NCBI GenBank assembly: GCA_003696155.1
Contig: RFFP01000033.1
Location: 1 to 53,196 of the forward strand
DNA from: Acidobacteriota bacterium
GTDB lineage: Bacteria; Aquificota; Aquificia; Aquificales; Aquificaceae
DNA: 53,196 nt
Direction: 5' to 3'
Shown: in pieces, positions 11,121 through 49,935 of the stretch
Position numbering within the stretch: position 1 is the first letter of the stretch
Layout: every line of letters begins with the position of its first letter
Position numbers and translations under genes: made by a program
Notes under the pieces: model-generated
Told to the model about the DNA's origin: nothing
Seen by the model: only the letters and a program-made list of their open reading frames with translations
The model's database searches: none

Positions 11121-11157
11121 CCCAAACAAAAAGGCATAAAAACTAAATAAAATCCTC

Positions 11158-18609: not shown

Positions 18610-18627
18610 GTTTGTTTGTCTACATAG

Positions 18628-31562: not shown

Positions 31563-31567
31563 GGCCC

Positions 31568-32071: not shown

Positions 32072-32136
32072 CTTTTTAAATATAGGCTATGTTAAAGGTC
32101 ATTGCTATTTTTGAGTACATGCGTAAAATACTTGCT

Positions 32137-33907: not shown

Positions 33908-34536
33908 CTCAGAACCTCTACAAGACCTTTGGATACAACCCTTCCCCTCAATATCCTATCCCCTCTCTTTACGCTTACCAGCTCGCCCATACGTCCAGAG
34001 TCCATGGCTATGCCATCAAACCTTATCTCTATGTATTCCCTTCTGTATATGACTTCCACTTTTTCACCAGCACTTACCAAGGGTAGCTCCTTAAGGTAAG
34101 ACTTCCTGAGAACCGTCCCCTTAGGTATAAAGGTGCTGGCTACGTAGTTTTTAAAGTCTTCAGGGCTCAGCCTTAGGTCCGAAGGTACAGTCTTTGCAAG
34201 CCTTTCCTCCTCTTCAAACATGCTTATATCTACGGTACTACCTTTGGGGATATCTCGGAGGGCTATGTACACCTTATAGCTCCATAGAGCATCTATTACA
34301 GCTTGAAACCTTCTCTCCCCTGTGTACACGTAAGCCACAGCCCTAGCCTTACCGTGCTCCATATCCAGCTCTATCCTCTGAATCTCCTTCAGGGACTTAG
34401 GACCCAGGAACCTTACGCCTTGAACCCTTACCCCATTACCAAAACGTGTGTATATCTTCTCCTCTATAGCCTTCTCTACGCTTACATGAGCAAAACAAAG
34501 GCCAAGTGCTACGAGTATTAAGCTAAGCGGGAACAT
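33904..34536 (-). CDS. flgA: Flagellar P-ring assembly protein FlgA
   Basis: Periplasmic chaperone for P-ring assembly, 210 residues. An N-terminal signal peptide (MFPLSLILVALGLCFAHV) is followed by the FlgA/SAF domain: ALRDIPKGSTVDISMFEEEE near 100 and FIPKGTVLRKSYL near 136. The end (GELVSVKRGDRILRGRVVSKG) is the usual FlgA C-terminus. It indicates a motile organism, yet no other flagellar gene is in the window. It overlaps frdB by 14 bp. Confidence 0.88.
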   Translation of the reverse strand: MFPLSLILVALGLCFAHVSVEKAIEEKIYTRFGNGVRVQGVRFLGPKSLKEIQRIELDMEHGKARAVAYVYTGERRFQAVIDALWSYKVYIALRDIPKGSTVDISMFEEEERLAKTVPSDLRLSPEDFKNYVASTFIPKGTVLRKSYLKELPLVSAGEKVEVIYRREYIEIRFDGIAMDSGRMGELVSVKRGDRILRGRVVSKGLVEVLR

Positions 34537-35206
34537 GCATAATGTGCATAAGCTCCCTTATAAGGGTTGCGGGCTGGACCTCTTTTGGGCATACGTTGTT
34601 GCACTTGTTACAGGAAAGACAGTGATACAAGTTCCCCTCCTTTACAGCCTGTATGGACCTGAGCTCCTTCCTATCCTCCCTTGGGTCGCTGTAAAACCTG
34701 TAGAACTTGGCAAAGAAAAGGGGTCCGGCGTACCTTTCCTCGAGCACCTGAGGACAGTAGGACTGACAGGCAAAGCAAAGTATGCAGTCTGCAGACCCTT
34801 CAATCTTTGAGCTTATATAAGGCGGGATGCGCGGGTCACCCTGGAACTCCTTAATCCAAAGCTGTAATCTTTTCATCCTATCTATGGCCCTTTCATGGTC
34901 CACCACAAGGTCCTTTATGACCTCAAAGTTCTTGAGCGGTTCTACAACAAGCTCTTCACCAAAAAGGACGTAAGGTAAGACCTGCTCCTTGCATGCAAGC
35001 TTGGGGAAGCCGTTCACCATGACCGCACATGTTCCACAGATACCTGCCCTACAGAAATGTCTAAAGGCAAGGCTTTGGTCTGTATCCTCTTTTATCTTCT
35101 GAAGGGCGCTTAGAAGGGTCATACCCTCCTGATAAGGCACTTCAAAGCTCTGATAGTAAGCATCTAAATCCTTTTCCTGTCTTTTTATTCTAAGTTTTAG
35201 AACCAT
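34523..35206 (-). CDS. frdB: Fumarate reductase/succinate dehydrogenase iron-sulfur subunit
   Basis: Electron-transfer subunit with three clusters: [2Fe-2S] CRAGICGTC plus a later Cys (about 52-72), and CILCFACQSYCP (about 139-150) and CLSCNKCNNVCP (about 194-205) for the [4Fe-4S] and [3Fe-4S] clusters. The middle group has a fourth Cys, so cluster identities are uncertain. The 227-residue length is normal. In Aquificales this enzyme runs as fumarate reductase in the reductive TCA cycle, which is known for the group; the A and membrane subunits lie elsewhere. Confidence 0.88.
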   Translation of the reverse strand: MVLKLRIKRQEKDLDAYYQSFEVPYQEGMTLLSALQKIKEDTDQSLAFRHFCRAGICGTCAVMVNGFPKLACKEQVLPYVLFGEELVVEPLKNFEVIKDLVVDHERAIDRMKRLQLWIKEFQGDPRIPPYISSKIEGSADCILCFACQSYCPQVLEERYAGPLFFAKFYRFYSDPREDRKELRSIQAVKEGNLYHCLSCNKCNNVCPKEVQPATLIRELMHIMHVPA

Positions 35207-35231
35207 GGCTAAATAATGTATGCTATTTTAC

Positions 35232-36416
35232 ATGCTAATCAAGAGCTTTGAAAGTAGGGAAGCCTTTTATAAGTTTCTTAAGGAGAGAATAGGTGTATTC
35301 TTCAAAGAGGCTTACGATAGGTCCTCTGAGGGTCTTTTTTATGTTTTTTACATAAAGGGGGAAGGTTTAAAACCTGAGGTCGTTCTTCCAATGGCAAGGA
35401 GTTCCTGTCTCCATGCCTTCTACGTCGAGGGTAAATACGTCCTGTGCGGTAGCGAGTCCAATATAAAAAACTTCTCCTCCCTTTTGGTAAGGGAGAACAA
35501 GACTTTAGCTATGGAAATACTTAAACATATTCAGGGCTATCGCAAGAGGTCTTTTAAACTTCAGTACAACTACAAGATACTTCCCTTAGGCATAAAGACG
35601 GCCATAATGGGTGTGCTCAACCTTACCCCCGACTCCTTCTCCGATGGTGGACTTTATCTAGAACCTTCCAAGGCTGTAAGCAAGGCTGTAAAAATGGTGG
35701 AAGAGGGGGCGGACATAATAGACATAGGAGGCGAGTCTACACGCCCGGGATCTAAAAGGATAAGTGCGGAGGAGGAGCTAAGAAGGGTTTTGTCCGTTTT
35801 GAAGGAGATAAGAAGGGAGCTTCCAAAGGTTTGGATATCCATAGATACCTACAAAGCACAGGTGGCAAAGGCTTGCCTAGAGGAGGGGGCGGACATCATA
35901 AACGACATAAGCGGGGGAACCTTTGACGGAGATATGTTTAACGTGGTGAGCCAGTATGGATGCCCTTACGTACTGAACCACATAAAGGGAAGACCCGAAA
36001 CCTGGAAAGAGGAGCCGCCCCTTTATGAGGATGTCATGGAGGAGATCATAAGCTGGATGAGAAGTAGAATTGGGGAGCTGAGAAGTAAGGGTTTTAGTGG
36101 TGAAATAATCCTTGACCCGGGCATCGGCTTTGGGAAGCTCCCCGAGCATAACGTAGAGATACTCAAGAGGTTCAGGGAACTGAATATATTCGGAGCGCCT
36201 CTCATGGTTGGCGTATCCAGAAAATCCTTTATAGGGCTTATACTTGAGGGTCTTATAAAGAAGAAGACGGAGCCCCACGAAAGGCTCTTTGGAAGCCTGG
36301 GGGCCCTCGCGCCGGCGGTCTTAGGCGGTGCAAACATAGTAAGGGTGCACGATGTAGCTCAAACAAGGGAGTTTTTAGCCCTTTTGGATTCGGTGAGAAC
36401 CTATGGTGAATTTTGA
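35232..36416 (+). CDS. folP: Dihydropteroate synthase with N-terminal extension
   Basis: Joins p-aminobenzoate to dihydropterin pyrophosphate in folate synthesis. The DHPS barrel starts IMGVLNLTPDSFSDGG (about 124-139) and has DIIDIGGESTRPGS, ISIDTYKAQVA and DPGIGFGK. Before it lies an extension of about 120 residues with no recognisable domain, making 394 residues against the usual 270-290. The ATG at 35220 is an alternative; 35232 follows a -10-like TATGCT by seven bases. It overlaps cdaA by 14 bp. Confidence 0.9.
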   Translation: MLIKSFESREAFYKFLKERIGVFFKEAYDRSSEGLFYVFYIKGEGLKPEVVLPMARSSCLHAFYVEGKYVLCGSESNIKNFSSLLVRENKTLAMEILKHIQGYRKRSFKLQYNYKILPLGIKTAIMGVLNLTPDSFSDGGLYLEPSKAVSKAVKMVEEGADIIDIGGESTRPGSKRISAEEELRRVLSVLKEIRRELPKVWISIDTYKAQVAKACLEEGADIINDISGGTFDGDMFNVVSQYGCPYVLNHIKGRPETWKEEPPLYEDVMEEIISWMRSRIGELRSKGFSGEIILDPGIGFGKLPEHNVEILKRFRELNIFGAPLMVGVSRKSFIGLILEGLIKKKTEPHERLFGSLGALAPAVLGGANIVRVHDVAQTREFLALLDSVRTYGEF

Positions 36417-37167
36417 CCTTCTGAGGTTTTTCTCATGGAGAGATCTGCTTGACATACTTGCTGTATCCCTCCTTTTATACGGTATTATCCACTTTCTTCG
36501 GATAACCAAGGGTTTCCAGATACTAAAAGGCATAGCGGTTCTTGCTATTTTTTGGCTCTTTGCGGAAATCTTGGGCCTTAGGGTGCTTTCCTGGATATTT
36601 GAAAAGCTATGGGCTGTGAGCCTTTTTTCCCTTGTGGTCATATTCCAGCCCGAGATAAGGAAGGCTCTTGGAAGGCTTGGACAGAGGGCTGGCATTTACA
36701 CGAGCAAACCCCTAATGGAACGGGTAGTGGAAAGGGTGGTAAGGGCTTGCGGTTTCTTATCTGAAAGACAGATAGGAGCCCTTGTGGTCATAGAAAGGGG
36801 ACAGAGCATAGATAACCTGGTGGAGGGCTGTGTGCTAGTGGATAGCGTAGTCTCTGCAGAGCTAATAATTACCATATTCAACCCACTTTCTCCCCTACAC
36901 GATGGAGCAGTGGTTATAAAGGGAGACAGGCTTGCCTTTGCCTCTTGCATTCTTCCACTTTCAAGAAGCCAAGAACTGCCCAAGAAGTACGGCACAAGGC
37001 ACAGGGCTGGTCTTGGCATATCGGAGGAGAGCGACGCCCTCTGCGTAGTAGTTTCGGAGGAAACGGGGGAGATATCCCTTGCGGTGGGGGGAAAGCTCCA
37101 CAGAAACCTTGACCCTGAGATGCTGAAGGCTCTTCTAATAAAGGAGTTAAGGATTGAGAATGCTTAG
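36403..37167 (+). CDS. cdaA: Diadenylate cyclase CdaA
   Basis: Membrane enzyme making cyclic di-AMP from two ATP. It has N-terminal membrane helices (about 14-30, 37-56, 63-80), then the DAC domain with PLHDGAVVIKGD (about 163-174) and GTRHRAGLGISEESDA (about 194-209), the DGA and RHR catalytic motifs. The 254-residue length is normal. The YbbR-like gene follows with an 8-bp overlap, the same cdaA-cdaR order as in Firmicutes. Confidence 0.93.
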   Translation: MVNFDLLRFFSWRDLLDILAVSLLLYGIIHFLRITKGFQILKGIAVLAIFWLFAEILGLRVLSWIFEKLWAVSLFSLVVIFQPEIRKALGRLGQRAGIYTSKPLMERVVERVVRACGFLSERQIGALVVIERGQSIDNLVEGCVLVDSVVSAELIITIFNPLSPLHDGAVVIKGDRLAFASCILPLSRSQELPKKYGTRHRAGLGISEESDALCVVVSEETGEISLAVGGKLHRNLDPEMLKALLIKELRIENA

Positions 37168-37546
37168 AAAGTTTCTCATAAGCGATTGGCAGTACAAGCT
37201 ATTGGCGCTCCTGCTTAGCATATCCTTTTGGCTTATGCTTAACTTGGGGGAAAGGGTTAGTATAAGTGTAGAAAAGAACCTTCAGGTCATAAACAAAGAA
37301 GGTGGTATGGATTATAAGGTAGACAGAAAGAGGGTAAAGCTCAGGCTCAGGGTTATCGAGAGGCTGGTCACCGAAGAGATGATAGAGGGTATAAAGGTAT
37401 ATGCAGATGTAAAGGGGCTATCTGAGGGTGAGTACATAATAAAGGTTGATGTTTACAACCCATCAAGGTTTCTCATAGGCATAGAAAGAATAGAACCGGA
37501 CTACGTTAGGGTTAGGGTATTAAAAGCCCCCGAAGGGGGGCAGTAA
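37160..37546 (+). CDS. cdaR: YbbR-domain protein (CdaR-like)
   Basis: A 128-residue protein with one N-terminal membrane helix (LLALLLSISFWLMLNL, about 13-28) and a single extracytoplasmic YbbR domain. CdaR in other bacteria binds CdaA and tunes c-di-AMP synthesis, but has four YbbR repeats; this is a one-repeat minimal form. I chose ATG 37160 over the TTG six bases earlier. Its 3' end forms the stem of the minus-strand terminator of the A-type Fe-S carrier. Confidence 0.75.
   Translation: MLRKFLISDWQYKLLALLLSISFWLMLNLGERVSISVEKNLQVINKEGGMDYKVDRKRVKLRLRVIERLVTEEMIEGIKVYADVKGLSEGEYIIKVDVYNPSRFLIGIERIEPDYVRVRVLKAPEGGQ
37522..37541 (-). terminator. Rho-independent terminator for the A-type carrier gene
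   Basis: Reading the minus strand, GCCCCC and GGGGGC arms enclose a CTTC-type loop and are followed directly by TTTTAATA. It begins 9 bases after the stop of the gene at 37550. It overlaps the last codons of the convergent YbbR gene. Confidence 0.75.
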
Positions 37547-37549
37547 AGT

Positions 37550-37894
37550 TCATCCGCAGGAGAAGGAGCTACCACAACCGCAGGAACCAGTCGCGTTGGG
37601 ATTCCTTATGGTGAAACCACCGCCCATAAAGTCCATGACGTAGTCTAGCTCAGCGTTGTTCACGTAAGGCATAGAAAACTGATCTATGGCGATCCTAAGA
37701 CCGCCGTATTCAAAGACGTTGTCTCCTTCCTCTATGGTATCGTCAAAGCCCATAGCGTACTGGAATCCGGAGCATCCACCAGGGACAACCCTTATCCTCA
37801 GTACGGGCTCTGATATGTTGTTCTCCTGAGCAATCCTCAGGACCTCCTGCACGGCCTTTTCCGTTGCGAAAAAGTTAAATCCTACTTTCTGCAT
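37550..37894 (-). CDS. erpA: A-type iron-sulfur carrier (IscA/ErpA)
   Basis: Delivers Fe-S clusters to target proteins. The 114-residue protein has the three conserved cysteines: one in PGGCSGFQY (about 41) and two in GSCGCGSSF (about 104-106), plus a last Cys in FSCG. A strong Shine-Dalgarno (AAAGGAGG) lies upstream and TATACT further up on the minus strand. A rho-independent terminator follows. IscA, ErpA and SufA cannot be separated by sequence alone, so the symbol is tentative. Confidence 0.88.
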   Translation of the reverse strand: MQKVGFNFFATEKAVQEVLRIAQENNISEPVLRIRVVPGGCSGFQYAMGFDDTIEEGDNVFEYGGLRIAIDQFSMPYVNNAELDYVMDFMGGGFTIRNPNATGSCGCGSSFSCG

Positions 37895-37978
37895 AATTAA
37901 CCTCCTTTAAAAGTTTTTTGCTAAAGTATATGATAGGCGGTGTAGGGGGCTTTTCAAGGGGAGGCTTTATGACGCTTA

Positions 37979-38422
37979 TCAAATAGTGGTTTCAGCTCTG
38001 TTTATAAGCCAAAAGACTATCCCAAGGGCAAGCACCAAAAGGGCAAGCACTATAAGCTCTTCGTGTTTTTCTGGAGTAAGAGAAAGAATTAGAACCTTCC
38101 TTATAACAGCCGCAAGAGCCACGCTCAAGAAGACCTTTATGCTTATGGTTCCTCCTTTCAGACGTCTAAGCTCCCCCAATAGCAGTTCAGAAATGGCATA
38201 AAGCACAAGTATGGAACCGAGGATGCTAAGACCACCACGTTCAATGGGCAACTGCCCTATAAGGACCATGTAGAACTCATAGATTATCCAAACCATAAGG
38301 AAGATACCCACACCAAAGAGTGTAAGCACTACAAAGGCATCAAAGAGGTAGGAAATACCCTCAAGGCCAAAGATGAGAAGCCTTATATATTTGTTTTGCA
38401 CAGTGTTATTTTTACGCTCCAT
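37979..38422 (-). CDS. PsiE-like membrane protein
   Basis: A 147-residue protein with four predicted membrane helices (about 22-48, 65-80, 92-112, 122-140), matching the phosphate-starvation-inducible PsiE family in length and in the segment ISIKVFLSVALAAVIRKVL. The biochemical role is unknown. The start lies seven bases after TATGAT on the minus strand with no Shine-Dalgarno, so a leaderless mRNA is likely. Confidence 0.7.
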   Translation of the reverse strand: MERKNNTVQNKYIRLLIFGLEGISYLFDAFVVLTLFGVGIFLMVWIIYEFYMVLIGQLPIERGGLSILGSILVLYAISELLLGELRRLKGGTISIKVFLSVALAAVIRKVLILSLTPEKHEELIVLALLVLALGIVFWLINRAETTI

Positions 38423-38456
38423 AGTTTATATCATAAATGGGTTAGGGTTTAAAACA

Positions 38457-38462
38457 TATAAT
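38457..38462 (+). promoter_or_regulatory. -10 element of folE
   Basis: TATAAT ends eight bases before ATG 38471 and two before ATG 38465. Initiation about seven bases downstream would fall at 38469-38471, favouring the later ATG in a leaderless message. Confidence 0.45.
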
Positions 38463-38470
38463 GTATGCTC

Positions 38471-39031
38471 ATGGCCATAGACAAGGAAAAGATAAGGCAG
38501 GCTGTTAGGCTATTTTTGGAAGGCATAGGTGAGGACCCTAATAGGGAGGGTTTGAAGGAAACACCCGAGAGGGTGGCACGCATGTGGGAGGAGTTTGAAG
38601 AAAAGAGGGACTTTGACTTTAAGCTCTTTGAGGAGTTCGGTGCATACAACGAAATGGTGCTGGTTAAGGACATAACCGTTTATTCTCTATGTGAACACCA
38701 CCTTCTGCCCTTTTTTGGCAAGGCACACATAGCCTATATACCCGACGGTATAATATGCGGGCTTTCTAAGCTTGTAAGGACGGTAAGAGCCTTCTCTCTA
38801 AGGCCTCAGGTTCAAGAGAGGCTGACAAACGAGATAGCGGATTTTCTGAATGAGCAGTTAAATCCCAAGGGAGTAGCGGTGGTTCTAGAGATGGAGCACC
38901 TATGTATGTCCATGAGAGGGGTAATGTCTCCTGGGCATCTCACCATCACATCAGCCCTAAGGGGTCTTTTCCTCAACGACCTTAGGACAAGGGAGGAGTT
39001 TCTAAAGCTCATAGGTAAAATATCTTTATGA
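38471..39031 (+). CDS. folE: GTP cyclohydrolase I
   Basis: First enzyme of tetrahydrofolate synthesis, GTP to dihydroneopterin triphosphate. It has the N-terminal [16 protein letters not shown], zinc ligands in [10 protein letters not shown] (Cys and His) and in [10 protein letters not shown] (Cys), and the catalytic [10 protein letters not shown]. From ATG 38471 it has 186 residues. It overlaps lpxI by 4 bp. folP lies 2 kb away, so folate genes are near but not contiguous. Confidence 0.95.
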
Positions 39032-39810
39032 AGGTTTGCCTCATAGCCGGCTCGGGTGAACTCCCAAGGGTTTTTTTTAGAGAAGCCCTGAAGGCAGGGG
39101 TTGAGGTCTTTGTGATAGGTATAAGGGGTATAACGGACCTGCATGTAGACCAGTACATACCGCTGGGCAAGGTAGAGAGGCTCGTAAAGACATTACAGAA
39201 GGAAGGTATCAAAGATATAGTTATGCTTGGAAAGTTTGAGCACAGCCTTCTCTTTTCCCATCTTCTCACCTTGGACAGCCTAGCAATTAAGATACTCCAG
39301 AGGGCAAGGGACAGAAAACCTCAGACCCTCATAAAGACCTTTATAGAAGAGCTTGCAAGCATAGGCTTTAACTTTCCAGACCCAAGGCCTTACTTGGAGG
39401 CAATCCTTGCACCAGCTGGCAGGATGGGATCCGTTGAACCTTCAGCTGAGGCTATGGAGGATGGGCTTTGGGGTTTCCCCATAGCCAAGGAGCTGGCAAG
39501 CCTGGACGTAGGTCAGACCCTTGTGGTTAAGGATAAGGCTGTGGTGAGCGTGGAGGCTATGGAGGGCACCCAAAAGACCATAGAGAGGGCAGGAGAGCTT
39601 GCGGGCAAAGGTTGCAGGGTCATAAAGGTTGCCCGCAGGTCCCAGGACTTCAGGATTGATGTGCCCACCGTTGGACCCAAGACCGTAGAGGCTATAAAGA
39701 AGATAAGGGGCGATGCTCTCTTTGTTGAGGCAGGCAAGATATACCTAATTGACAGAGAAAAGCTTGTTAAACTCGCGGACAAACACGGTATTGCGGTTTA
39801 CGGCCTTTGA
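39028..39810 (+). CDS. lpxI: UDP-2,3-diacylglucosamine pyrophosphatase LpxI
   Basis: Fourth step of lipid A synthesis, UDP-diacylglucosamine to lipid X. It begins [15 protein letters not shown] and has the LpxI-diagnostic [19 protein letters not shown] (core PLGKVERLV) and the C-terminal [11 protein letters not shown] and [13 protein letters not shown]. The 260-residue length is normal. It shows an outer membrane with lipopolysaccharide. It overlaps folE by 4 bp and is convergent with the ABC exporter (13-bp overlap). Confidence 0.92.
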
Positions 39811-41483
39811 AGGAAGAAGTCTATAGCTTCCTTGGGTTTTCCTTCGAAAACGGGTGTGCCTTCGCCAAAGACAAAGACCCTATCGCACCTTCTTATGTTT
39901 GAAAACCTATGAGCTACCAGAATAACAGTACTTCCACGGAAGAAGCTAAGGAGGTTTTCCAGCACTTCCTCCTCCTTTTTCGCATCTAAGGCTGATGTTA
40001 CCTCATCCAAAAGAAGAAGGTCCGCATCCCTAAGAAAAACCCTCGCAAGGGCAAGTCTCTGCCTTTCTCCACCGGATAGGGTCCTATGGCTTACCCATTG
40101 TTCTAAGTCCTTCACAAAATCACAGCAGGCAAGCCTCAGAGCTTCCCACAGCTCCTCATCGGTGGCATTGGACCTTGAGATAAGGAGGTTCTCCCTGACC
40201 GTTCCCGGATACACAAAGGGTTCCTGAGAGAGGTATTGCACCCTAGACCTCAAGCAGGTTCTGTTTATATCTTTTAGTTCAACTCCGTTAATTCTAAGGC
40301 TACCTTCGTAGGGCAACAGCCCCGCAAGAACCTTCAAAAAGCTACTCTTACCTGAGCCCGTCTCCCCCATTATGCCCACCTTTTCACCCCTTGATATCTC
40401 TATGCTTACATCCCTAATAAGCTCCTGACCGTTCACACGCACTACCAACCCTGAGGCTTTTATGTCCTTGATGGGTCCACCCAATTCCAACCTGCCTTCC
40501 TTCTCTTCGGGAAGGCTGAGGAGCTCCCTTATCCTCTCAAGAACGGGCAAGGAAGCCCTGAGCTCCATTATGCCCTTCTGAGTCTCCACAAGAGGTCTTT
40601 GCAGAAAGACAAGGGCGGTAATATAGGATATGAAATCACCCGCTGTAAGCGCGCCCTCCACAACCCTATAGCCACCGTAAAGTATGACCATGGCAACCGC
40701 CGAATAACCAAAGGTATAGTTAAAGACGGAGTTTATAGCAAAGTAGAGCTCAGACTTGAAGCTAGAGTAGAAAAGCCTTCTGTTTAGTTCTGAAAATATG
40801 CCCTGAAACCTTCTCTCCGCACCTAAGCTCCTTATGCTTTCAAAGCCTCCAAAGGAGCTAAAGACCTTATCGGAGATGTCCGCGTAGCCCTCCTGAGACC
40901 TTCTAACGTGCTTGCCTCTCTTTCCCCCAAAGTATCTGACCGCAAGAGTGAGCACGGGAAGCAGGAAGAGCATCAAAAGGGTCAGAAGCCAATCCCTGTA
41001 AAGAAGCACACCCACTAGGAAGAGAACAGAAAAGGGTTCACGTATTATCTTTATAGAATAAGATCCTATTAGGTTTCTGTAGAGGTTCATATCCGATAGC
41101 ATCTTAGATAGGAACTCTCCGGGTGGTACCCTGAGAAATACGGAGTAGTCCACTCTTAAGAGCCTGATGAAGGCTTCCTCTCTGAGTCTTTGCATCTCCC
41201 TTTCCGTATAGAGGTTAGAAAAGAAGCTTACGGTAAAGCTCCCAAGCTGGGCAACCAGGACAAAAGCCATAAGTTTGAGTATGGTGAACACCAACTCCTC
41301 CCCCTCTTTTAGAAAAAAGACCCTGTCAACCAAGGACTTGACCACAAGACTTACGCCCGCCGTCCCCCCAGCTTCAAGGACGGAACCTACTAAACTTAGA
41401 AGAACCAAAAGCCAGTAAGCTTTAAGCCTTAGTAAGAGCCACTTTACATTTTCCACAGAGGGAAATATTTTAATACCAGCCAT
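39798..41483 (-). CDS. MsbA-like ABC exporter
   Basis: Half-transporter of 561 residues: an N-terminal six-helix ABC membrane domain (to about 310) and a nucleotide-binding domain with Walker A GETGSGKS (about 369-376), Q-loop LSQEPF, signature LSGGERQRLALARVF (about 463-477), Walker B LLLLDEVTSALD and H-loop VAHR. It could flip lipid A (MsbA), fitting its place beside lpxI, or export another hydrophobic substrate. Its ATG overlaps the ATG of the divergent small gene inside one CATG. Confidence 0.88.
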   Translation of the reverse strand: MAGIKIFPSVENVKWLLLRLKAYWLLVLLSLVGSVLEAGGTAGVSLVVKSLVDRVFFLKEGEELVFTILKLMAFVLVAQLGSFTVSFFSNLYTEREMQRLREEAFIRLLRVDYSVFLRVPPGEFLSKMLSDMNLYRNLIGSYSIKIIREPFSVLFLVGVLLYRDWLLTLLMLFLLPVLTLAVRYFGGKRGKHVRRSQEGYADISDKVFSSFGGFESIRSLGAERRFQGIFSELNRRLFYSSFKSELYFAINSVFNYTFGYSAVAMVILYGGYRVVEGALTAGDFISYITALVFLQRPLVETQKGIMELRASLPVLERIRELLSLPEEKEGRLELGGPIKDIKASGLVVRVNGQELIRDVSIEISRGEKVGIMGETGSGKSSFLKVLAGLLPYEGSLRINGVELKDINRTCLRSRVQYLSQEPFVYPGTVRENLLISRSNATDEELWEALRLACCDFVKDLEQWVSHRTLSGGERQRLALARVFLRDADLLLLDEVTSALDAKKEEEVLENLLSFFRGSTVILVAHRFSNIRRCDRVFVFGEGTPVFEGKPKEAIDFFLQRP

Positions 41484-41718
41484 GGTAAAGTGGGTTCTGG
41501 GCCTACTTATAGCCTTTTTGTTAATTGATCACCTGTGGATTCATCTCGGTGGTCCGATGATAGAAAAGGTAAGAGGGGAGTATAGGGAAGGTCTAGAAAA
41601 GGTGGTCAAGGAAGGTGAGAGGGTTGAGTTAGAGCAGACCCATAGAAAAAGCATAATAGATGGGCTCATAGAAAAGGCTAAGAAATTCCTCAAAAAGGAG
41701 GAGAAGAAGGATGGGTGA
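41482..41718 (+). CDS. Small membrane-anchored protein
   Basis: A 78-residue protein with one N-terminal hydrophobic helix (WVLGLLIAFLLIDHLWI, about 4-20) and a strongly charged, probably coiled-coil tail rich in Glu and Lys. I do not recognise the family. Its start codon overlaps that of the divergent ABC exporter. It overlaps ribBA by 8 bp, with GGAG before the ribBA start inside it, so it is probably translated to some extent. Confidence 0.65.
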   Translation: MVKWVLGLLIAFLLIDHLWIHLGGPMIEKVRGEYREGLEKVVKEGERVELEQTHRKSIIDGLIEKAKKFLKKEEKKDG

Positions 41719-42922
41719 GTACAAGTTTAACACCATAGAGGAAGCCCTAGAAGATATATCTCAGGGAAAGATGGTTATCGTTGTGGATGACCCAGATAGG
41801 GAAAACGAGGGTGACCTTGTGATGGCTGCGGAGAAGGTGACCCCAGAGGCTATAAACTTTATGGCAAAGTACGGGAGGGGTCTTATATGTCTATCCCTCA
41901 CACCGGAAAGGTGCGAGGAGCTAGACCTCCACCCTATGACCGCAAGAAACACGGACCCAAAGGGAACCTACTTCTGCGTCTCCATAGATGCCCATCCTAA
42001 GTTTGGAACCACCACGGGCATATCCGCCTTTGATAGGGCTGTAACTATAAAACTTGCAGTAAGTCCAGAGGCTAAACCTTCGGATTTCTTAAGGCCTGGG
42101 CATGTCTTTCCCTTAAAGGCAAAGCCGGGAGGTGTTCTTGAAAGGGCAGGGCATACAGAGGCTTCTGTGGACCTTGCAAGGCTCGCAGGTCTCTATCCTG
42201 CGGGTGTCATATGCGAGGTTATGAAAGATGACGGCACAATGGCAAGGCTTGATGACCTGATTGACTTTGCAAAAAGGTTCAACCTCAAGATAATAACCAT
42301 TGCGGACCTCATACGCTATAGGCTGAAGAGGGAAAGGCTCGTGGTCAGAGAAGCTACCGCCAACCTTCCCACAAGATACGGCTTTTTCAAGATACATGCC
42401 TACAAGCATGTGCTCACGGGGGAGGAACAAGTAGCGCTTACCATGGGAGAGTGGCATGAGGATGAGCCCGTGCTTGTTAGAGTTCATTCCGAGTGCCTTA
42501 CTGGGGATGTTTTCAAGTCCCTAAGGTGCGACTGTAGGTCTCAACTTGAGTCCGCAATGGAGGCCATAGCTCAGGAGGGTAAGGGCGTTCTTGTCTACAT
42601 AATGGGCCATGAGGGTAGGGGCATAGGTATAGTGAATAAGATAAAGGCTTACCATCTTCAAGATATGGGATACGATACAGTGGAAGCCAACGAGAAGGTG
42701 GGCTATCCTGCGGACCTCAGGGAGTACGGTGTGGGAGTTCAGATACTTCTAGACCTAGGGGTAAGAAAGATGAGGCTACTTACCAACAACCCGAGAAAGA
42801 TAGTAGCACTAGAGGGTTATGGGCTTGAAGTGGTAGAAAGAGTACCCCTGAAGGTTCAAGCCTGCGAACACAATCAGAGGTATTTGGAAGCAAAAAAGCT
42901 CAAGTTGGGACACATGCTATAG
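41711..42922 (+). CDS. ribBA: DHBP synthase / GTP cyclohydrolase II
   Basis: Bifunctional riboflavin enzyme of 403 residues. The RibB domain has DDPDRENEGDLVMAAE (about 26-41) and RPGHVFPL and ERAGHTEAS (about 141-149). The RibA domain from about 205 has HSECLTGDVFKSLRCDCRSQL with the zinc cysteines (core LTGDVFKSLRCDC) and MGHEGRGIGI. All catalytic motifs of both halves are present. A Shine-Dalgarno lies in the end of the small gene before it. It is convergent with the histidine kinase, overlapping by 6 bp. Confidence 0.96.
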   Translation: MGEYKFNTIEEALEDISQGKMVIVVDDPDRENEGDLVMAAEKVTPEAINFMAKYGRGLICLSLTPERCEELDLHPMTARNTDPKGTYFCVSIDAHPKFGTTTGISAFDRAVTIKLAVSPEAKPSDFLRPGHVFPLKAKPGGVLERAGHTEASVDLARLAGLYPAGVICEVMKDDGTMARLDDLIDFAKRFNLKIITIADLIRYRLKRERLVVREATANLPTRYGFFKIHAYKHVLTGEEQVALTMGEWHEDEPVLVRVHSECLTGDVFKSLRCDCRSQLESAMEAIAQEGKGVLVYIMGHEGRGIGIVNKIKAYHLQDMGYDTVEANEKVGYPADLREYGVGVQILLDLGVRKMRLLTNNPRKIVALEGYGLEVVERVPLKVQACEHNQRYLEAKKLKLGHML

Positions 42923-43903
42923 TATAGGCAGATATACCCTAAAGGTGCTTCCCCTTCCTTCGGAACTTTCCACATCAACCCTTCCTCCGTGGGATAGTGC
43001 TATATGTTTGGCTATAGAAAGGCCAAGCCCTGTACCACCCAGCTCTTTGGAGCGTGATGGGTCCACCCTGTAAAAGCGGTCAAAGATGAAGGGTATATGC
43101 TCCTTGGGTATGCCTATACCCGTATCCTCCACCTCTATGACCGCATGTCCCTCCTGCATGAAAGAGCCTACCCTGACCTTTCCACCCTTCCTGTTGTACT
43201 TTATACCGTTGTCAACAAGATTCTTCAACAGCAAAAAGAGCTTGTCCTTGTCGCCGCTAAGCATAAAACCCTCTTCCACCAAGTTCTCAAGGCTTACATC
43301 CCTCATCTGAGCTTCTTCCGAAAGAAAGTCAAAGACATCCTCTACGAGAGATCTCAGGCTAAAGGTTTCCCTTTTAAGCCTTTCCTCTCCAGATTCGAGC
43401 TTGGTTATTATTAGGAGGTCTTCGACCAAATTTCTCATGTCCTCTACACGCCTGATGGCTCTCTCTAAAAAGGTCTTCTTTTCTTCCCTGTCCTCCTCCT
43501 CATAGAGGGTTTCTAGGATGCTTTTGAGTACTGCGATGGGGGTTTTAAGCTCGTGGGATACGTTGGCAACAAACTCCCTCTTTGACCTTTCATAGCGCTT
43601 GAGCTCCGTTATATCCGTGCATCTTACCACGACCATATCGCTACCCACAAAGGTGTAGAGGGAATAATCCCTATGGCCATGGTAAAAATTGCACACCTTA
43701 GCCTTTCCGTTGGAAAAGGTTTCCGCAAGACAGCTCACCACGCTCAAGTTACCTATACACTCGTAGTAGGGTCTGTTTTCGTAATTCTCCTTTATAAGGC
43801 CCCTTCTTATGAGAAAGTCGTTGCAAAAGAGCACAAGTCCCTGTCTGTCTATCAACAGATAACCCTCCTCCACCTGGTTGAGAAACTCCTTAAGAAAGCT
43901 CAT
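42917..43903 (-). CDS. PhoR-like sensor histidine kinase
   Basis: A 328-residue kinase with an N-terminal PAS-like domain (about 5-100), H-box FVANVSHELKTPIAVL with His117, N-box NLVDNGIKYN, G1 DTGIGIP, F-box IFDRFYRVD and G2 GTGLGLSIAKHI. It has no membrane helix, so it may be a soluble sensor or bind a membrane partner. PhoR-like kinases usually pair with PhoB; no response regulator is adjacent. It overlaps purK by 14 bp. A PsiE-like gene lies 5 kb away, which would fit phosphate control but does not show it. Confidence 0.87.
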   Translation of the reverse strand: MSFLKEFLNQVEEGYLLIDRQGLVLFCNDFLIRRGLIKENYENRPYYECIGNLSVVSCLAETFSNGKAKVCNFYHGHRDYSLYTFVGSDMVVVRCTDITELKRYERSKREFVANVSHELKTPIAVLKSILETLYEEEDREEKKTFLERAIRRVEDMRNLVEDLLIITKLESGEERLKRETFSLRSLVEDVFDFLSEEAQMRDVSLENLVEEGFMLSGDKDKLFLLLKNLVDNGIKYNRKGGKVRVGSFMQEGHAVIEVEDTGIGIPKEHIPFIFDRFYRVDPSRSKELGGTGLGLSIAKHIALSHGGRVDVESSEGRGSTFRVYLPIL

Positions 43904-44972
43904 GATGGTAAATCACTTCTAGGAGCCTTTCTATCTTCTCCTCAACTTCTTGTTCTGTGCTTGCGACCACATTCACGTGCCCTACCTTTCTTCTTGGCTT
44001 TTTATCCTTGCCATACCAATATAGCTTGGCACCTTCAACGGAGAGAAGAGCCTGCAAATCAAGCTCTTCAAGGGAGAGCCCTAAGATGTTGACCATACCG
44101 GAAGGGCTCTTTAGCTTGGTAGAGCCCAAGGGCAGACCACATACAGCCCTAAGAAGGTTTTCAAACTGGGATGTATAAGACCCGTCAAGGCTGTAGTGTC
44201 CCGTATTGTGGGGTCTTGGTGCCATCTCGTTTATAAGAACTTTACCATCCCATGTGTAGAAGAACTCCACCGCCAAAAGACCAACAATGCTAAGCTCTTC
44301 CATAAGGTAGAGGACTATCTGATTTGCCTCATCTATGGAAAAGCCCCTGGTGAAGTTGTACAGAAGTATGCCCTTGTCATGGCGGTTTATGGTGAGAGGA
44401 TAGAGTTTAGTATTGCCCTTCTTGTCCCTTACACCGATTACCGAAAACTCAAAGCTAAAGTCAACCAACCTCTCCACAACAAACTTCTCTCCTTCCTTGT
44501 GGTTTTTGAATACCTGATGGAGGTCTTCCAGACTGTCTATCCTGTACTGACCCCTACCATCGTAGCCAAGCCTTTCCGCCTTTAAGATACAAGGGAAACC
44601 AAAGTCTTTTACCGTTGGAGATAAACCGCTGTAGTCCGCAACTGTAAACTCAGGTATGGGAAGCCCTTTCCTTCTGTAAAACTCCTTCTCCTCTATCCTG
44701 CTTCTCTTTACCTCTAGTATGCTAAGGGATGGTGTGGTAAGGTCATAAAGCTCCTCAAGGAGCTCCTCATGAATGTGTTCAAACTCGTAGGTTATAAGGT
44801 CGCACCATCTTATAAAATCTCTCACCCGCTCTGGGGGAAACCATAGGTCTGCTACCCTGCTGGCGGGAGCCCCTGGATCCTTATCAAGAACTGCAAACTC
44901 AAGACCCAGCCTCCTGCCCTCAAGGATGGTCATCCATCCCAGCTGACCACCGCCCAGTATACCAACCCGCAT
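43890..44972 (-). CDS. purK: N5-CAIR synthetase
   Basis: ATP-grasp enzyme converting AIR and bicarbonate to N5-carboxy-AIR in purine synthesis. It begins RVGILGGGQLGWM and has LKAERLGYDGRGQY (about 129-142), VERLVDFSFEFSVI and EMAPRPHNTGHY (about 255-266). The 360-residue length is normal. On the minus strand TATAAT (44979-44984) ends six bases before the ATG with no Shine-Dalgarno, and this -10 lies on the stop region of the cas6 relic. purE is not adjacent. Confidence 0.95.
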   Translation of the reverse strand: MRVGILGGGQLGWMTILEGRRLGLEFAVLDKDPGAPASRVADLWFPPERVRDFIRWCDLITYEFEHIHEELLEELYDLTTPSLSILEVKRSRIEEKEFYRRKGLPIPEFTVADYSGLSPTVKDFGFPCILKAERLGYDGRGQYRIDSLEDLHQVFKNHKEGEKFVVERLVDFSFEFSVIGVRDKKGNTKLYPLTINRHDKGILLYNFTRGFSIDEANQIVLYLMEELSIVGLLAVEFFYTWDGKVLINEMAPRPHNTGHYSLDGSYTSQFENLLRAVCGLPLGSTKLKSPSGMVNILGLSLEELDLQALLSVEGAKLYWYGKDKKPRRKVGHVNVVASTEQEVEEKIERLLEVIYHHELS

Positions 44973-44978
44973 AAGAAA

Positions 44979-44984
44979 ATTATA
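44979..44984 (-). promoter_or_regulatory. -10 element of purK in the tail of the cas6 relic
   Basis: TATAAT on the minus strand, six bases before the purK ATG. It overlaps the relic's last Leu and stop codons (TTATAA). No -35 consensus at 17 bp. Confidence 0.5.
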
Positions 44985-45156
44985 AGACCTCTAAGTATCC
45001 AAAGCCCTGACCCGTCCTGTAGCCAAGCCCAAACTGGTAGACAAACTTAAGGAGCCGTGGGTTGTCCGTCTCTATCTTAAAGGCACCAACAAAGCCCCTA
45101 AAGCTCTCAGCCTGAAACTTGAAGAAAGAAAACTTCGGGTTGTAGCCCTTAAGTTG
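44980..45156 (-). pseudogene. cas6: C-terminal relic of a second cas6
   Basis: 58 open codons on the minus strand without a start. They read LKGYNPKF, SFRGFVGAF, LLKFVYQFGLGYRTGQGFGY and LEV before the stop. The intact Cas6 at 10359 has IKGYEPKF, YLRGFVGEF, VMKFVYQYGLGVRTGQGFGY and LQV in the same order and spacing. The frame is cut by TAG (45157-45159) inside a CRISPR-repeat-like sequence. It is the end of another cas6, different enough from the intact gene not to be a recent copy. purK starts 7 bp downstream. Confidence 0.85.
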
Positions 45157-45180
45157 CTAATCTACCGTGTGGAGCTGAAG
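45153..45180 (+). repeat. Solitary degenerate CRISPR repeat
   Basis: 28 bases beginning GTTGCTAATCTACCG and ending TGTGGAGCTGAAG. Aligned to the 29-bp array repeat there are 24 identities, four substitutions and one missing A. Orientation is the same as in the main array. It directly touches the cas6 relic, and the nfeD promoter follows about 22 bp later. No second repeat is seen at 60-70 bp on either side. Confidence 0.8.
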
Positions 45181-45201
45181 GAGTTGAGTTAAAAGAAGTA
45201 G

Positions 45202-45207
45202 TATACT
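45202..45207 (+). promoter_or_regulatory. -10 element of nfeD, leaderless spacing
   Basis: TATACT ends six bases before ATG 45214; there is no Shine-Dalgarno. It lies 22 bases after the solitary CRISPR repeat. Confidence 0.45.
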
Positions 45208-45213
45208 ATCCTT

Positions 45214-46470
45214 ATGAAACTTGTTATTTTGCTACTACTCCTCTTTGGTTTTCCCTTTGCAAAGGTGTATGTTTCCCAATGGCAAGATGCAGTTACTCCT
45301 GTAATGGTAGACCATATAAAAAGAAGTCTTCAGGAGGCTGAAAAGGGAGGGGCAACCCTTTTTCTCCTTGAGCTTAACACGCCCGGGGGTTTAGAAAGTT
45401 CCATGAGGGAGGTGGTTCAAGAGTTTCAGAGGGCACATATGCCCATTGTGGTCTTTGTTTACCCGTCTGGTGGTAGGGCTGCCTCCGCTGGTGCCATAAT
45501 AACCATATCGGCAGATATAGCGGTCATGGCACCGGGAACAAACATGGGTGCGGCACATCCTGTGCAGATGGGTGGTGAGAGGATGGACGAAGCAATGAAG
45601 GAGAAGGTCCTTCAGGATATGCTCGCCTTTGTGCGTAGTATAGCAAGAGAAAAGGGGAGAAATGTGGAAGTTGTAGAGCGCATGGTTAAAGAAAGCATAT
45701 CTCTTACACCAGAGGAGGCGCTAAAGGAAAAGGTTATAGACTTCATAGCAGTGGACAGAGCAGACCTCCTGAAAAAACTAAACGGCAGGGTGGTAAATAA
45801 ACAGGGAAGGGAGATAACCATAAAAACAGAGGGTGTGGCGGTTGTAGAAATGGGTAAGAGTTTGAGGGAGGAGTTTCTAAGACTTATAACAAACCCCACC
45901 GTAGCCTACATGCTCTTACTTATAGGTTTTTATGGCATATTCTTTGAGCTTTACAACCCAGGCTCCATAATACCCGGTGCAGTCGGTGTTATCAGCCTGC
46001 TTCTCGGTCTTTATGGGCTCGGTATAATAGGCATAAACTGGCTTGGGCTACTGCTCATACTTGCAGGGATTTTGCTTTTAGTTCTTGAGCTTATAACGCC
46101 AACCTTCGGAGGGCTTGCAATAGCAGGTGCGGTTGCCCTTGCTATAGGTTCCCTAATACTCATAAGCCCAGACTCACCTTACGGGGATATACCCTTAAGC
46201 GTCATAGCCACTATGGTGGGTCTTACGGTGGCCTTTTTCCTATTCGCTGGGAGATTAGGTCTCGCAGCGCAAAAAAGGAAAAAGATGCTCGGAACTGAGG
46301 AGCTGATAGGAGAGCGAGGAGAAGCATACACAGACTTTGTGGGTGGTAAAGGAAAGGTTTTCATACATGGTGAGATATGGAACGCGATCGGCAAGGAGGA
46401 TATAAAAAGGGGAGATATGGTTGTGGTGGAAGAGGTCAGCGGAATGACATTAAAGGTGAAGAAACTATAA
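45214..46470 (+). CDS. nfeD: NfeD membrane serine protease (ClpP class)
   Basis: 418 residues: signal peptide (about 1-16), a ClpP-like protease domain with the nucleophile S91 in GRAASAGA and a likely Lys near 131, several membrane helices (about 230-345), and a C-terminal OB-fold NfeD domain (about 360-418). The archaeal homologue PH1510 cleaves stomatin; a stomatin gene would be the expected partner but none is adjacent. It is the full-length (NfeD1b-type) form. Confidence 0.9.
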   Translation: MKLVILLLLLFGFPFAKVYVSQWQDAVTPVMVDHIKRSLQEAEKGGATLFLLELNTPGGLESSMREVVQEFQRAHMPIVVFVYPSGGRAASAGAIITISADIAVMAPGTNMGAAHPVQMGGERMDEAMKEKVLQDMLAFVRSIAREKGRNVEVVERMVKESISLTPEEALKEKVIDFIAVDRADLLKKLNGRVVNKQGREITIKTEGVAVVEMGKSLREEFLRLITNPTVAYMLLLIGFYGIFFELYNPGSIIPGAVGVISLLLGLYGLGIIGINWLGLLLILAGILLLVLELITPTFGGLAIAGAVALAIGSLILISPDSPYGDIPLSVIATMVGLTVAFFLFAGRLGLAAQKRKKMLGTEELIGERGEAYTDFVGGKGKVFIHGEIWNAIGKEDIKRGDMVVVEEVSGMTLKVKKL

Positions 46471-46471
46471 A

Positions 46472-46559
46472 CGGAGAGGGCGGGATTCGAACCCGCGGTA
46501 CGGGGTTACCGTACACAGCATTTCCAGTGCTGCGCCTTCGACCACTCGGCCACCTCTCC
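46472..46559 (-). tRNA. tRNA-Ser (GGA)
   Basis: 88-nt tRNA on the minus strand. Acceptor GGAGAGG pairs with CCTCTCC, discriminator G, anticodon loop CTGGAAA with anticodon GGA, T-loop GGTTCGAATCC, and a long variable arm (TACGGTAACCCCGTA) as expected for Ser. CCA is not encoded. It begins 1 bp after the nfeD stop on the opposite strand. Confidence 0.96.
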
Positions 46560-46590
46560 AAACCAGTAAAGATTATAAAATATTTTCGCT

Positions 46591-47505
46591 ATGAGAATTG
46601 CCAGCATAGATGTAGGTTCATACTCTTGTAGGCTCAGCATAGCAGACTTAGATGGCGGTCTAAAATTACTGCATGAGGAAGGCATAATAACCGCCCTAGC
46701 CACCGAGCTGAAGGAAAGGGGAGAGCTAAAAGAAGACAGAATCGTAGAAACCCTAAAGGTAGTCAAGGACTTTGTTCAAAAGGCAAACTCCTTCGGAGTT
46801 CAAAGGATAAAACTTGTGGGAACAGAGGCTTTAAGAAGGGCCAGCAACTCCCAAGAATTTTTAGAAAAGCTAAAAGAGGACACAGGCTTGGAGCTAAAGG
46901 TAATAACTCCAGAGGAAGAGGGAAAGTATGCCTTCCTTTCGGTAGCCTACTCTCTTAGACCTAAGGGGAAGTTCTGCATAATAGACCAAGGGGGTGGCTC
47001 TACAGAGTTTGTCTGCGGAAGGGATTTTCATATAGAAAGTCTCACATCCTTTCCCTTTGGCATTGTTAACCTCACAGAGGAGTTTATACACAGCGACCCG
47101 CCCACAAACTACGAGCTTGAATCCCTGAAAAACTACCTTGACGAGCATATAAAGCACATAGTCCAGCCCTGCGACCATCTTGTGGGTCTGGGTGGTACTA
47201 TAACCACAGTGGCAGCCTTAGAGTATGGTATTTACCCTTACAAGGGTGAAGAGGTCCATGGTAAGGAACTCCCTATTAATAGACTCATGTTTTGGCTTGA
47301 GACCCTCTCAAGCATGAAGGAAAGTCAAAGGGTTGCAAGCTTCCCCCATATTGAGCCCAAAAGGGCAAGGGTCATAATCCCAGGCCTTTTAATTTTCTAC
47401 AGGAGTATGCTACTTTTTGCCAAAGAACGCATACTGGTAAGCGATTGGGGACTAAAAGAAGGCCTACTTGTGGAAGAACTACTATACTATACAACCTTTA
47501 TGTAG
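46591..47505 (+). CDS. ppx: Exopolyphosphatase / pppGpp phosphohydrolase
   Basis: ASKHA-fold Ppx/GppA hydrolase, 304 residues. It has SIDVGSYSCRLSIAD at the N-terminus (phosphate loop 1), GTEALRRASN (about 87-96), IIDQGGGSTEF (about 130-140) and GLGGTITTVAALE (about 194-206). This is the short, two-domain form lacking the C-terminal HD extension of E. coli Ppx. It may control polyphosphate or (p)ppGpp; which one is unclear. The start has only A+T-rich DNA upstream. It is convergent with the DsrE gene (19-bp overlap). Confidence 0.9.
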   Translation: MRIASIDVGSYSCRLSIADLDGGLKLLHEEGIITALATELKERGELKEDRIVETLKVVKDFVQKANSFGVQRIKLVGTEALRRASNSQEFLEKLKEDTGLELKVITPEEEGKYAFLSVAYSLRPKGKFCIIDQGGGSTEFVCGRDFHIESLTSFPFGIVNLTEEFIHSDPPTNYELESLKNYLDEHIKHIVQPCDHLVGLGGTITTVAALEYGIYPYKGEEVHGKELPINRLMFWLETLSSMKESQRVASFPHIEPKRARVIIPGLLIFYRSMLLFAKERILVSDWGLKEGLLVEELLYYTTFM

Positions 47506-47996
47506 GCAAATCTCTCCACAGCCTGCAAGTGTCCTATCATGCCTACACCCGATGGTACTATTTTGGTAAACTCGTGGAGCTTGTTCGGGTCCAGCTTAAG
47601 CCTTCGAAGGGTTATATCGCATATGTAAAAATCTACACCATAAACCGTGAGGTCCCTTTCAGCCCTATAGAGCTCTTCTATGTTTAGCTGTTCCTTTTCC
47701 CAAGGTGAGCCCGTTAGGTCTTTCATGAAGAACTTTACACCAGGTCCGTGGGCTACAACCGCTATCTTTATCTTGAAGGGGTCGTTGTTATACACGGATA
47801 GATGATTGCTTATGTTTCTCAGCATGGTTGTAAAACGATCAACCTGGGGAAAGTCGCAGTGGTATACAACACCTATGCTGGCCTCTTTTTTAACTTCCTC
47901 CATTTTAAGTCTCTGAGGGCTGGCGTTAGCAATCTTGCCAACTATGGGAACTGATGCCAAAAGAGAAAACCACTTGAAAAAACCTCTTCTGTTCAT
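47487..47996 (-). CDS. Tat-exported DsrE-family protein
   Basis: A 169-residue protein with an N-terminal twin-arginine leader (NRRGFFKWFSLLASVPIVG) and a DsrE/DsrF-like domain: VVYHCDFP near 43-50, KIAVVAHGPGVKFFM near 76-90 and DFYICDITLRRLKL with a Cys near 129. DsrE-like proteins handle sulfur or bind small ligands; the periplasmic ones are of unknown role, possibly linked to sulfur oxidation in this group. AAAGGAGGG gives a strong Shine-Dalgarno. Confidence 0.8.
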   Translation of the reverse strand: MNRRGFFKWFSLLASVPIVGKIANASPQRLKMEEVKKEASIGVVYHCDFPQVDRFTTMLRNISNHLSVYNNDPFKIKIAVVAHGPGVKFFMKDLTGSPWEKEQLNIEELYRAERDLTVYGVDFYICDITLRRLKLDPNKLHEFTKIVPSGVGMIGHLQAVERFAYIKVV

Positions 47997-48118
47997 GTTT
48001 ACCCTCCTTTAATTTTTCTCTGAGCTTTAGTCTAGGCCATTTCTAAAAAGGGTCAACCTGATAGGCATCATAAGGAAGGGTAAAAGGACGGCTTAAGATA
48101 CATTCTTTGGCTTTCTGC

Positions 48119-48124
48119 TATAAT
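48119..48124 (+). promoter_or_regulatory. -10 element of tRNA-Met
   Basis: TATAAT 12 bp before the first base of the tRNA. No matching -35 hexamer at 16-18 bp. Confidence 0.5.
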
Positions 48125-48136
48125 TTTATACCTGTA

Positions 48137-48210
48137 GGCGGCGTAGCTCAGCTGGTTAGAGCGGAGATCTCATAAGTCTCAGGTCGGAGGTTCGAGTCCT
48201 CCCGCCGCCA
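48137..48210 (+). tRNA. tRNA-Met (CAT), elongator-like
   Basis: 74-nt tRNA with acceptor GGCGGCG/CGCCGCC, D-arm AGCTCAGCTGGTTAGAGC, anticodon loop CTCATAA with CAT, and T-loop GGTTCGAGTCC. The first pair is G-C, so it is not the initiator, which has a mismatch there. A lysidine-modified tRNA-Ile (CAT) cannot be excluded. CCA is not encoded. The stop codon of the convergent ligase gene follows with no gap. Confidence 0.93.
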
Positions 48211-49935
48211 TTACTCCACGGAAACCTTTTTTTGGAGATTGTAAAGTCTCACTATGTCCTCAACAGTGTTTGCGTCCTCTGCTCTCTTGTCTTCCCTTAT
48301 AAAGCTCACGGCCCTTGGAAAGCGAAGAGCATAACCCGGCTCTTCTATGGTTCTTCCTGCGGTGTGCATGGGTGAGCGTGTAATCTCATCTGCGTTCACA
48401 GTTATGACAAACTTGGGCTCTACCCATACGTCGGGTTCCAGAAGGCTGTCAACCCTTGGGTGCCTGTGAGTAAGCTTTATTCTATCTAGCATTTCCCTTA
48501 GTTCCACCCACTCCCTTTCCGTAAAGCCTGAGCCCACCTTGCTTATAGTCTTAAAGGTGTCCGCAGATGGTTCATAGACACCTACAAGCACACCACCTAT
48601 GCCAAGCTTTGCCCTTGCACCTCTACCATAGTAGTAACCAAGTATGACCACGTCAATGGTGTCCGCAAGAGCACCCCTGTAGCTCCTCTTTAGCTTTATC
48701 CAGTTGAAGTTTCTTGAGCCCGCTGTGTAGGGGGCGTCCAACCTCTTAGCCATTATACCCTCTAACCCTCTGGTTATGGCGTTTTCAAAAAACTCCTCAA
48801 TCTCCCTTATGCTTTCTGTTATAAATAGCTCCGAATGGTCCAAGTGTTCACCCTTTGGCACCACCTCTTCTAGCCTTCTCCTTCTCTCTATAAAGGGCTT
48901 TGGGGTGTAGTCTTCTCCGTCTAGGTAAAGAAGGTCAAAACAGAAGAGCTTTAAGGGAAACTCCTTAGCGTACTCTTGAACTCCGTACTTTCTCTTTCTC
49001 TGTATGGTTATCTGAAAGGGGTAGAACTCTCCCGTCTCTTCGTTAACCGCCAGAGCCTCTCCCTCCAATATGAGGCTGTGAACTTTGACCTCTTTGAGTA
49101 TGGAGGCCTTGATTTCTGGAAACATCTCGGTCATGCGCTCTAAGTTTCTTGAATATATCTCTATCCTTTGACCTTCTTTATGCACCTGAAGCCTAAAGCC
49201 GTCGTACTTGACTTCCACAGCACAGCGACCGAGCCTTCTGACTATCTCCTCCGCGCTGGCTACCCTCTCCGCCAGGGCCATCCTTATGGGATAGCCTACC
49301 TTCACACCGAAGCTCTTTAGCGCCTCCATACCACCCTCTTTTAGGCTCTTAGCCACCAGTCCAAGGTCGGAACACAGATTGTAAGCCCTTTCTATATCCT
49401 GCTTCAACTCCTTACCGCCAGCCATAAGGGCAAGAGCATCCAGTATGGTTGCATCCCCTACCCCAAGTCTCAGCCTTCCAAGAATTATCCTCACCGCATA
49501 GCGTGCTTCAAAGCCAGAAAGTCCTTTAAGGAGGCTTATGAGCTTCATAACTTTGTCCAAGGTCCCCCTAGTCTGAGCAATGCCGAGAAGCTCCCCATAG
49601 ACCTGTGAAAGGCTCAAAGCCTTCCCCTGCCAGCTGATAATCTGCTCTGCCACCTCCCCCAGATCCCCAAGCTTCTTGTATATGGTTTCTATCTGTGAGA
49701 CCTTTAAACCGCACGCTTTTGAAAGAGCTTCCATAATAAGCTTTTCTGAAAGCCCAAACTCCACACCTCTGAAGGCGGGCAGTATTTCTCCCGTGGTGAG
49801 GTAAGCGACCTTGTCTACTTCATCACTATCCACAAGATGAAAAAGCCCTCTGAGAAGTTCCGCCATCTCAAGCCTGCTCGTGGTTTCTTCTATGCTTTTT
49901 AGGTACTCGCAGAACTCTTTAAACTTCATGACCAA
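48211..49935 (-). CDS. lig: ATP-dependent DNA ligase, archaeal type
   Basis: Seals nicks using ATP. The 574-residue protein has an N-terminal DNA-binding domain, motif I EVKYDGFRLQ with the adenylated K243, motif III (SLILEGEALAV), motif IV (EGIMAKRLDAPY) and motif V (WIKLKRSY), then the OB fold. This length and arrangement are those of archaeal replicative ligases, known also in Aquifex, and unlike the NAD-dependent LigA of most bacteria. ATG three codons in is an alternative start. It overlaps the DUF815 gene by 17 bp. Confidence 0.94.
   Translation of the reverse strand: MVMKFKEFCEYLKSIEETTSRLEMAELLRGLFHLVDSDEVDKVAYLTTGEILPAFRGVEFGLSEKLIMEALSKACGLKVSQIETIYKKLGDLGEVAEQIISWQGKALSLSQVYGELLGIAQTRGTLDKVMKLISLLKGLSGFEARYAVRIILGRLRLGVGDATILDALALMAGGKELKQDIERAYNLCSDLGLVAKSLKEGGMEALKSFGVKVGYPIRMALAERVASAEEIVRRLGRCAVEVKYDGFRLQVHKEGQRIEIYSRNLERMTEMFPEIKASILKEVKVHSLILEGEALAVNEETGEFYPFQITIQRKRKYGVQEYAKEFPLKLFCFDLLYLDGEDYTPKPFIERRRRLEEVVPKGEHLDHSELFITESIREIEEFFENAITRGLEGIMAKRLDAPYTAGSRNFNWIKLKRSYRGALADTIDVVILGYYYGRGARAKLGIGGVLVGVYEPSADTFKTISKVGSGFTEREWVELREMLDRIKLTHRHPRVDSLLEPDVWVEPKFVITVNADEITRSPMHTAGRTIEEPGYALRFPRAVSFIREDKRAEDANTVEDIVRLYNLQKKVSVE

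Follow-up and report, generated by a model that had tools for sequence, protein, structure and literature searches.

Loss of CRISPR-Cas loci by deletion has been documented in Haloquadratum walsbyi, where removal of the whole cas set left a CRISPR remnant (PMC3119063). The locus is complete in one strain and reduced by deletion to a few repeats in the other, HBSQ001, in which five spacers and a leader remain with no cas gene there. In the Aquificales, the number of CRISPR clusters ranges from one to thirteen, and cas genes accompany only some of them (PMC4227106). Single repeats outside arrays can also be functional elements, from which a small RNA is expressed that acts with Cascade: those of CreTA are paired with a toxin RNA (PMC9458426), and the solitary repeat units, or Racr, lie in viral genomes (PMC10651486).

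The locus described here, from a hot-spring bacterium, lies in a window of 53,196 nucleotides, which is the whole stretch of DNA that was analysed. Like the HBSQ001 remnant, it appears to be a locus that is complete in one relative and was reduced by deletion in another, and it differs from that remnant in consisting of one repeat and the end of a cas6 gene, with no leader. We assign a probability of roughly 93% to the reading that this relic and repeat are together a scar left by the loss of a type I-B-like CRISPR-Cas locus. The following features define the scar and its closest points of reference:

43890-44972, minus strand: purK, with its ATG 7 bp after the cas6 stop
44980-45152, minus strand: cas6 relic, 57 C-terminal codons and the stop (from translation, Pfam PF01881, and alignment and a tree with intact Cas6)
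45153-45180, plus strand: solitary CRISPR repeat, GTTGCTAATCTACCGTGTGGAGCTGAAG (from a shuffle test and comparison with the array of the relative G010)
10359-11120, plus strand: resident intact cas6, of a different lineage from the relic (from Pfam and the tree)

The first-pass annotation had read the minus strand of 44980-45159 as the C-terminal quarter of Cas6, and the translation, QLKGYNPKFSFFKFQAESFRGFVGAFKIETDNPRLLKFVYQFGLGYRTGQGFGYLEVL bounded by stop codons, agrees. In a profile search, PF01881 (Cas_Cas6_C) matches the relic with an E-value of 3.9e-9 and 37.8 bits (cut-off 23), the alignment reaching the last profile position (125/125), and this E-value rules out chance resemblance to Cas6. 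The NCBIfam model TIGR01877 also matches (1.6e-7), although the shortness of the piece keeps the score under the family's full-length cut-off. The glycine-rich GxGxRTGQGFG motif of the C-terminal Cas6 domain is present, and pairwise alignment with the intact Cas6 at 10359 gives 46% identity (8e-18), so both the alignment and the profile comparison proposed at first pass bear out the assignment. In one search the relic was 67-69% identical to Cas6 from the same-genus genomes G009 and G004, and 54% identical to the Cas6 of its own genome. The tree likewise groups the relic with same-genus Cas6 and apart from the resident protein, on a long branch with 24% of columns filled; with a relic of just 57 codons on so long a branch, the tree does not separate G009 and G004 from G010 as nearest relative.

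Besides this closer kinship to same-genus Cas6, two details of the original description required correction. The cas6 stretch ends at 45152, since Q at the start of the translation and part of the L after it belong to the CRISPR repeat; for the same reason, codons in frame before LKGY are no longer counted as candidate cas6 sequence. The order of motifs had also been described as spaced like that of the intact Cas6 at 10359, which does not hold: 12 codons are deleted in frame between PKF and RGFVG, where relatives carry YKEQMLKHYGGY.

No open reading frame of at least 30 amino acids was called at the relic, and it falls short of a full-length Cas6, which has two ferredoxin-like domains and a start codon. 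With 57 of approximately 232 residues, the N-terminal three quarters and the start codon gone, and a 12-residue gap, the relic is therefore a broken gene, a pseudogene fragment rather than a Cas6. Its frame remains uninterrupted, and on that basis alone a short peptide could still be made, but there is no start codon. That the 57 codons are still translated, into a trimmed Cas6 that serves the cell as a small RNA-binding peptide, is barely credible: the open frame, the limited change at first and second codon positions and the fact that another genome of the genus, G008, likewise retains just the C-terminal Cas6 end all speak for it, yet no start codon gives a product of at least 30 amino acids, the N-terminal three quarters are absent, the deleted 12-residue stretch is a conserved one, and the G008 piece has a different length and different neighbours. 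That separate relic (L003:1480-1670) comprises about 60 codons with stop codons just upstream, at another location, in a genome in which one CRISPR repeat was found.

Understood as a pseudogene, the relic was probably inactivated recently relative to the species split, because its codons still look constrained: compared with G009, identities at the three codon positions are 0.70, 0.81 and 0.53, with pN of 0.24 and pS of 0.62. Synonymous sites are near saturation, and with pairwise synonymous distances mostly saturated the timing of decay is qualitative only. The same pattern of substitution suggests that the relic diverged from relatives mostly while it was still a working gene.

The break in cas6 directly adjoins the repeat at 45153-45180 (plus strand), a point that the first-pass annotation missed. 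A shuffle test, with 0 occurrences expected by chance in 100 shuffles, rules out a chance origin for this repeat. It is near-identical to the repeats of an array in a relative, 26 of its 28 bases being equal to those of the G010 array repeat (2 mismatches), and its orientation relative to cas6 is that of the intact G010 locus. An array comprises at least two direct repeats with spacers; only one repeat is present at the relic, with no second copy within 42000-48500.

The scar now forms one edge of a rearranged segment, as indicated by comparison of gene order with relatives:

30710-31339, plus strand: hisIE, its last codons altered at the left junction (LVKPRR instead of MK)
31325-45213, no strand assigned: block of approximately 13.9 kb with a TPR gene, glcD ... 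ribBA, a histidine kinase gene, purK, the cas6 relic and the repeat
45214-46470, plus strand: membrane protease gene of the nfeD family, which follows hisIE directly in relatives and is here separated from it by the block

The genes hisIE and nfeD are direct neighbours in 11 same-genus genomes, with a gap of approximately 15-17 bp where the genes were read, and the block separates them in this genome only. Gene order within the block, from the TPR gene and glcD to purK, is as in relatives, and the glcD-to-purK order is ancestral in the genus. At the left junction, the break falls in the final codons of both hisIE and the TPR gene, and the right junction consists of the repeat and 33 bp, followed by nfeD. 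Gene order thus indicates that the block was placed between hisIE and nfeD by a rearrangement seen in this genome only and, given the adjacency of these genes in relatives, the closeness of nfeD to the relic is secondary and uninformative about the old locus. The assembly is a draft of 37 contigs. Misassembly was judged unlikely: the two junctions differ from each other, each adjoins an ancestral neighbour, and a chimeric join would not be expected to put the block exactly between hisIE and nfeD at both ends.

The first-pass annotation had suggested looking for an intact cas locus in relatives, and two genomes carry one. Both G010 (L071) and G012 have, upstream of purK, an intact cas6 that belongs to the same genus group and is divergent from an I-B-like cas7-cas5-cas8-cas3-cas4-cas1 operon, and in G010 an array of at least 13 repeats lies beyond the operon. 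The cas7, cas4 and cas1 genes of G010 were assigned by Pfam and the remaining cas genes by position and resemblance to the set resident in the window. A type I-B locus, with cas6, cas8, cas7, cas5, cas3 and adaptation genes beside an array, is thus present in G010, and beside purK in the window there are only the cas6 end and a single repeat. The window and G010 otherwise agree in the distance of 7 bp from the cas6 stop to the purK ATG, in the genus-level Cas6 group, in the repeat (2 of 28 bases different) and its orientation, and in the bases TATAATTTTC / TTATAATTTTC on the purK side of cas6. In G012 (L072:9157-10434), the intact cas6 is separated from purK by a cytochrome c peroxidase gene, and a 48-bp piece with QGFGYLEV and the stop directly adjoins purK as a second scar. 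The short cas6 end is thus repeated before purK in that genome, as if insertion of the peroxidase gene had duplicated the end of cas6.

These comparisons bear on whether a stray piece of cas6 and a repeat were copied or moved alone into the gap between purK and nfeD, with no full locus ever beside purK in this lineage. Such an origin would suit a region that is rearranged in this genome only; it is nonetheless very unlikely, given that G010 has an intact cas6 at the same 7-bp spacing with the same TATAATTTTC sequence and that G012 retains a cas6 end directly upstream of purK. From the G010 spacing and sequence and the G012 cas6 end, the cas6-purK joint is therefore ancestral and old in the genus. 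The deletion-scar reading, and with it a second CRISPR-Cas locus that once stood next to purK in an ancestor, is supported by a relic that belongs with same-genus Cas6, a repeat of another array type than the resident one abutting it, and an intact cas6 and operon at purK in two genomes. The initial proposal of a second locus survives in this form, beside purK in an ancestor; its setting between purK and nfeD, and the present distance to the resident locus, derive from the rearrangement rather than from the original layout.

The ancestor would have had a cas6 ending 7 bp before purK and, divergent from it, cas7-cas5-cas8-cas3-cas4-cas1 leading to a CRISPR array, as in G010. A deletion of approximately 8-9 kb would then have removed the N-terminal part of cas6 and everything between, fusing the C-terminal quarter of cas6 to one array repeat so that only the two ends of the locus remained, and the remnant would have drifted afterwards. 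In G010, the position equivalent to the cas6 break lies at about L071:7983, 8.3-9.1 kb away from the array at 16255-17118; this interval corresponds to what the window has lost. We infer one deletion rather than several. The purK block with the scar came to lie between hisIE and nfeD by rearrangement, either before or after the deletion.

The cas6 stop is overlapped by a TATAAT-like box that lies a few bases ahead of the purK start codon and is nearly genus-wide (L031-L045), though the upstream gene often differs. Because of this overlap, it is plausible that the last bases of cas6 were kept partly as regulatory sequence for purK, which would have limited the extent of the deletion. A promoter scan of the purK-nfeD gap returned no convincing promoter for either gene, only a single weak match on the wrong strand for nfeD. 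A contig scan with PurK returned one named relative, an Aquificaceae metagenome-assembled genome.

The genome also has a CRISPR-Cas system elsewhere in the window and further solitary repeats on other contigs; the genome-wide statements that follow rest on searches of the genome:

11651-17081, plus strand: resident I-B-like cas7-cas5-cas8-cas3
17930-18612, plus strand: resident array of 11 repeats, GTTTCTAATCAACCGGGTGGAGTTGAAAG
C32:69729-69756 (L101): solitary repeat of the lost type
C14:16314-16335 (L102): solitary repeat of the lost type
C27:49243-49269 (L103): solitary repeat of the lost type

One cas7 was found in the genome, and neither cas1 nor cas2 was detected there at the thresholds used, in searches that matched control genomes. 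After cas3, a truncated cas4 (window 17078-17260) is similar to the 169-residue Cas4 of G010 over that protein's first 60 residues and then stops. With neither cas1 nor cas2 found, spacer acquisition by the resident I-B-like system is probably no longer possible. A truncated protein of the RAMP superfamily (133 residues, 9961-10362) is encoded immediately upstream of the intact cas6; it matches PF03787 (8.9e-5), is similar to the C-terminal portion of a type III Cmr6-like protein and is apparently another Cas relic. The truncated RAMP gene and the intact cas6 lie between two copies of a transposase-like fragment that are 97-98% identical (9605-9823 and 11154-11371), which looks as though cas6 had become trapped between two insertion-sequence remnants. 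Two similar small proteins sharing a 28-residue stretch are encoded at 3798-4307 and 5663-6058, on either side of trpB.

Each of the three other solitary repeats sits behind the conserved leader motif TGACATCTTGsCAACTGAAyAGGG or a close variant of it, a motif likewise found ahead of both the G010 array and the resident one. These repeats are surrounded by housekeeping genes and have the appearance of arrays of which only a leader and one repeat are left; G013 and G008 also have solitary repeats of this sort. These leader-bearing repeats, together with an I-B-like effector that is still present and the functional ectopic single repeats known from CreTA and Racr, would be compatible with the repeat at the scar being a working element of that kind, a CreA-like regulatory RNA or an RNA anti-CRISPR-type unit with the cas6 end as a mere neighbour. 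The details at the relic make this highly improbable. Its repeat differs more from the resident array repeat GTTTCTAATCAACCGGGTGGAGTTGAAAG than from that of G010, and it has no leader, second repeat, phage gene or toxin gene beside it and no Rfam match in a scan of 44900-45300. It is flanked by the cas6 break on one side and by 33 bp and then nfeD on the other, and it was not found between hisIE and nfeD in relatives. It shares with CreTA and Racr the position of a single repeat outside an array, and no toxin, spacer-like partner, target promoter or viral context was seen. On these features, it would be explained more simply as a deletion scar, in which the absence of a leader follows from a deletion that starts inside cas6. 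It is very unlikely that the solitary repeats of this genome, that of the relic included, would be kept as small RNA genes for the remaining I-B-like effector rather than as passive leftovers.

The scar itself needs no function, and the decay it records follows a known pattern and gives no hint of a new mechanism. It is a well-preserved case of a known process, clear but ordinary, and it also illustrates that scars in intergenic space can escape annotation pipelines. Its value lies in being an unusually legible snapshot of CRISPR-Cas loss: the two ends of the locus can still be read, joined to each other, and the genus includes an intact counterpart. Within one genus of thermophiles, the order in which adaptation genes, arrays and whole loci are lost is thereby open to study.
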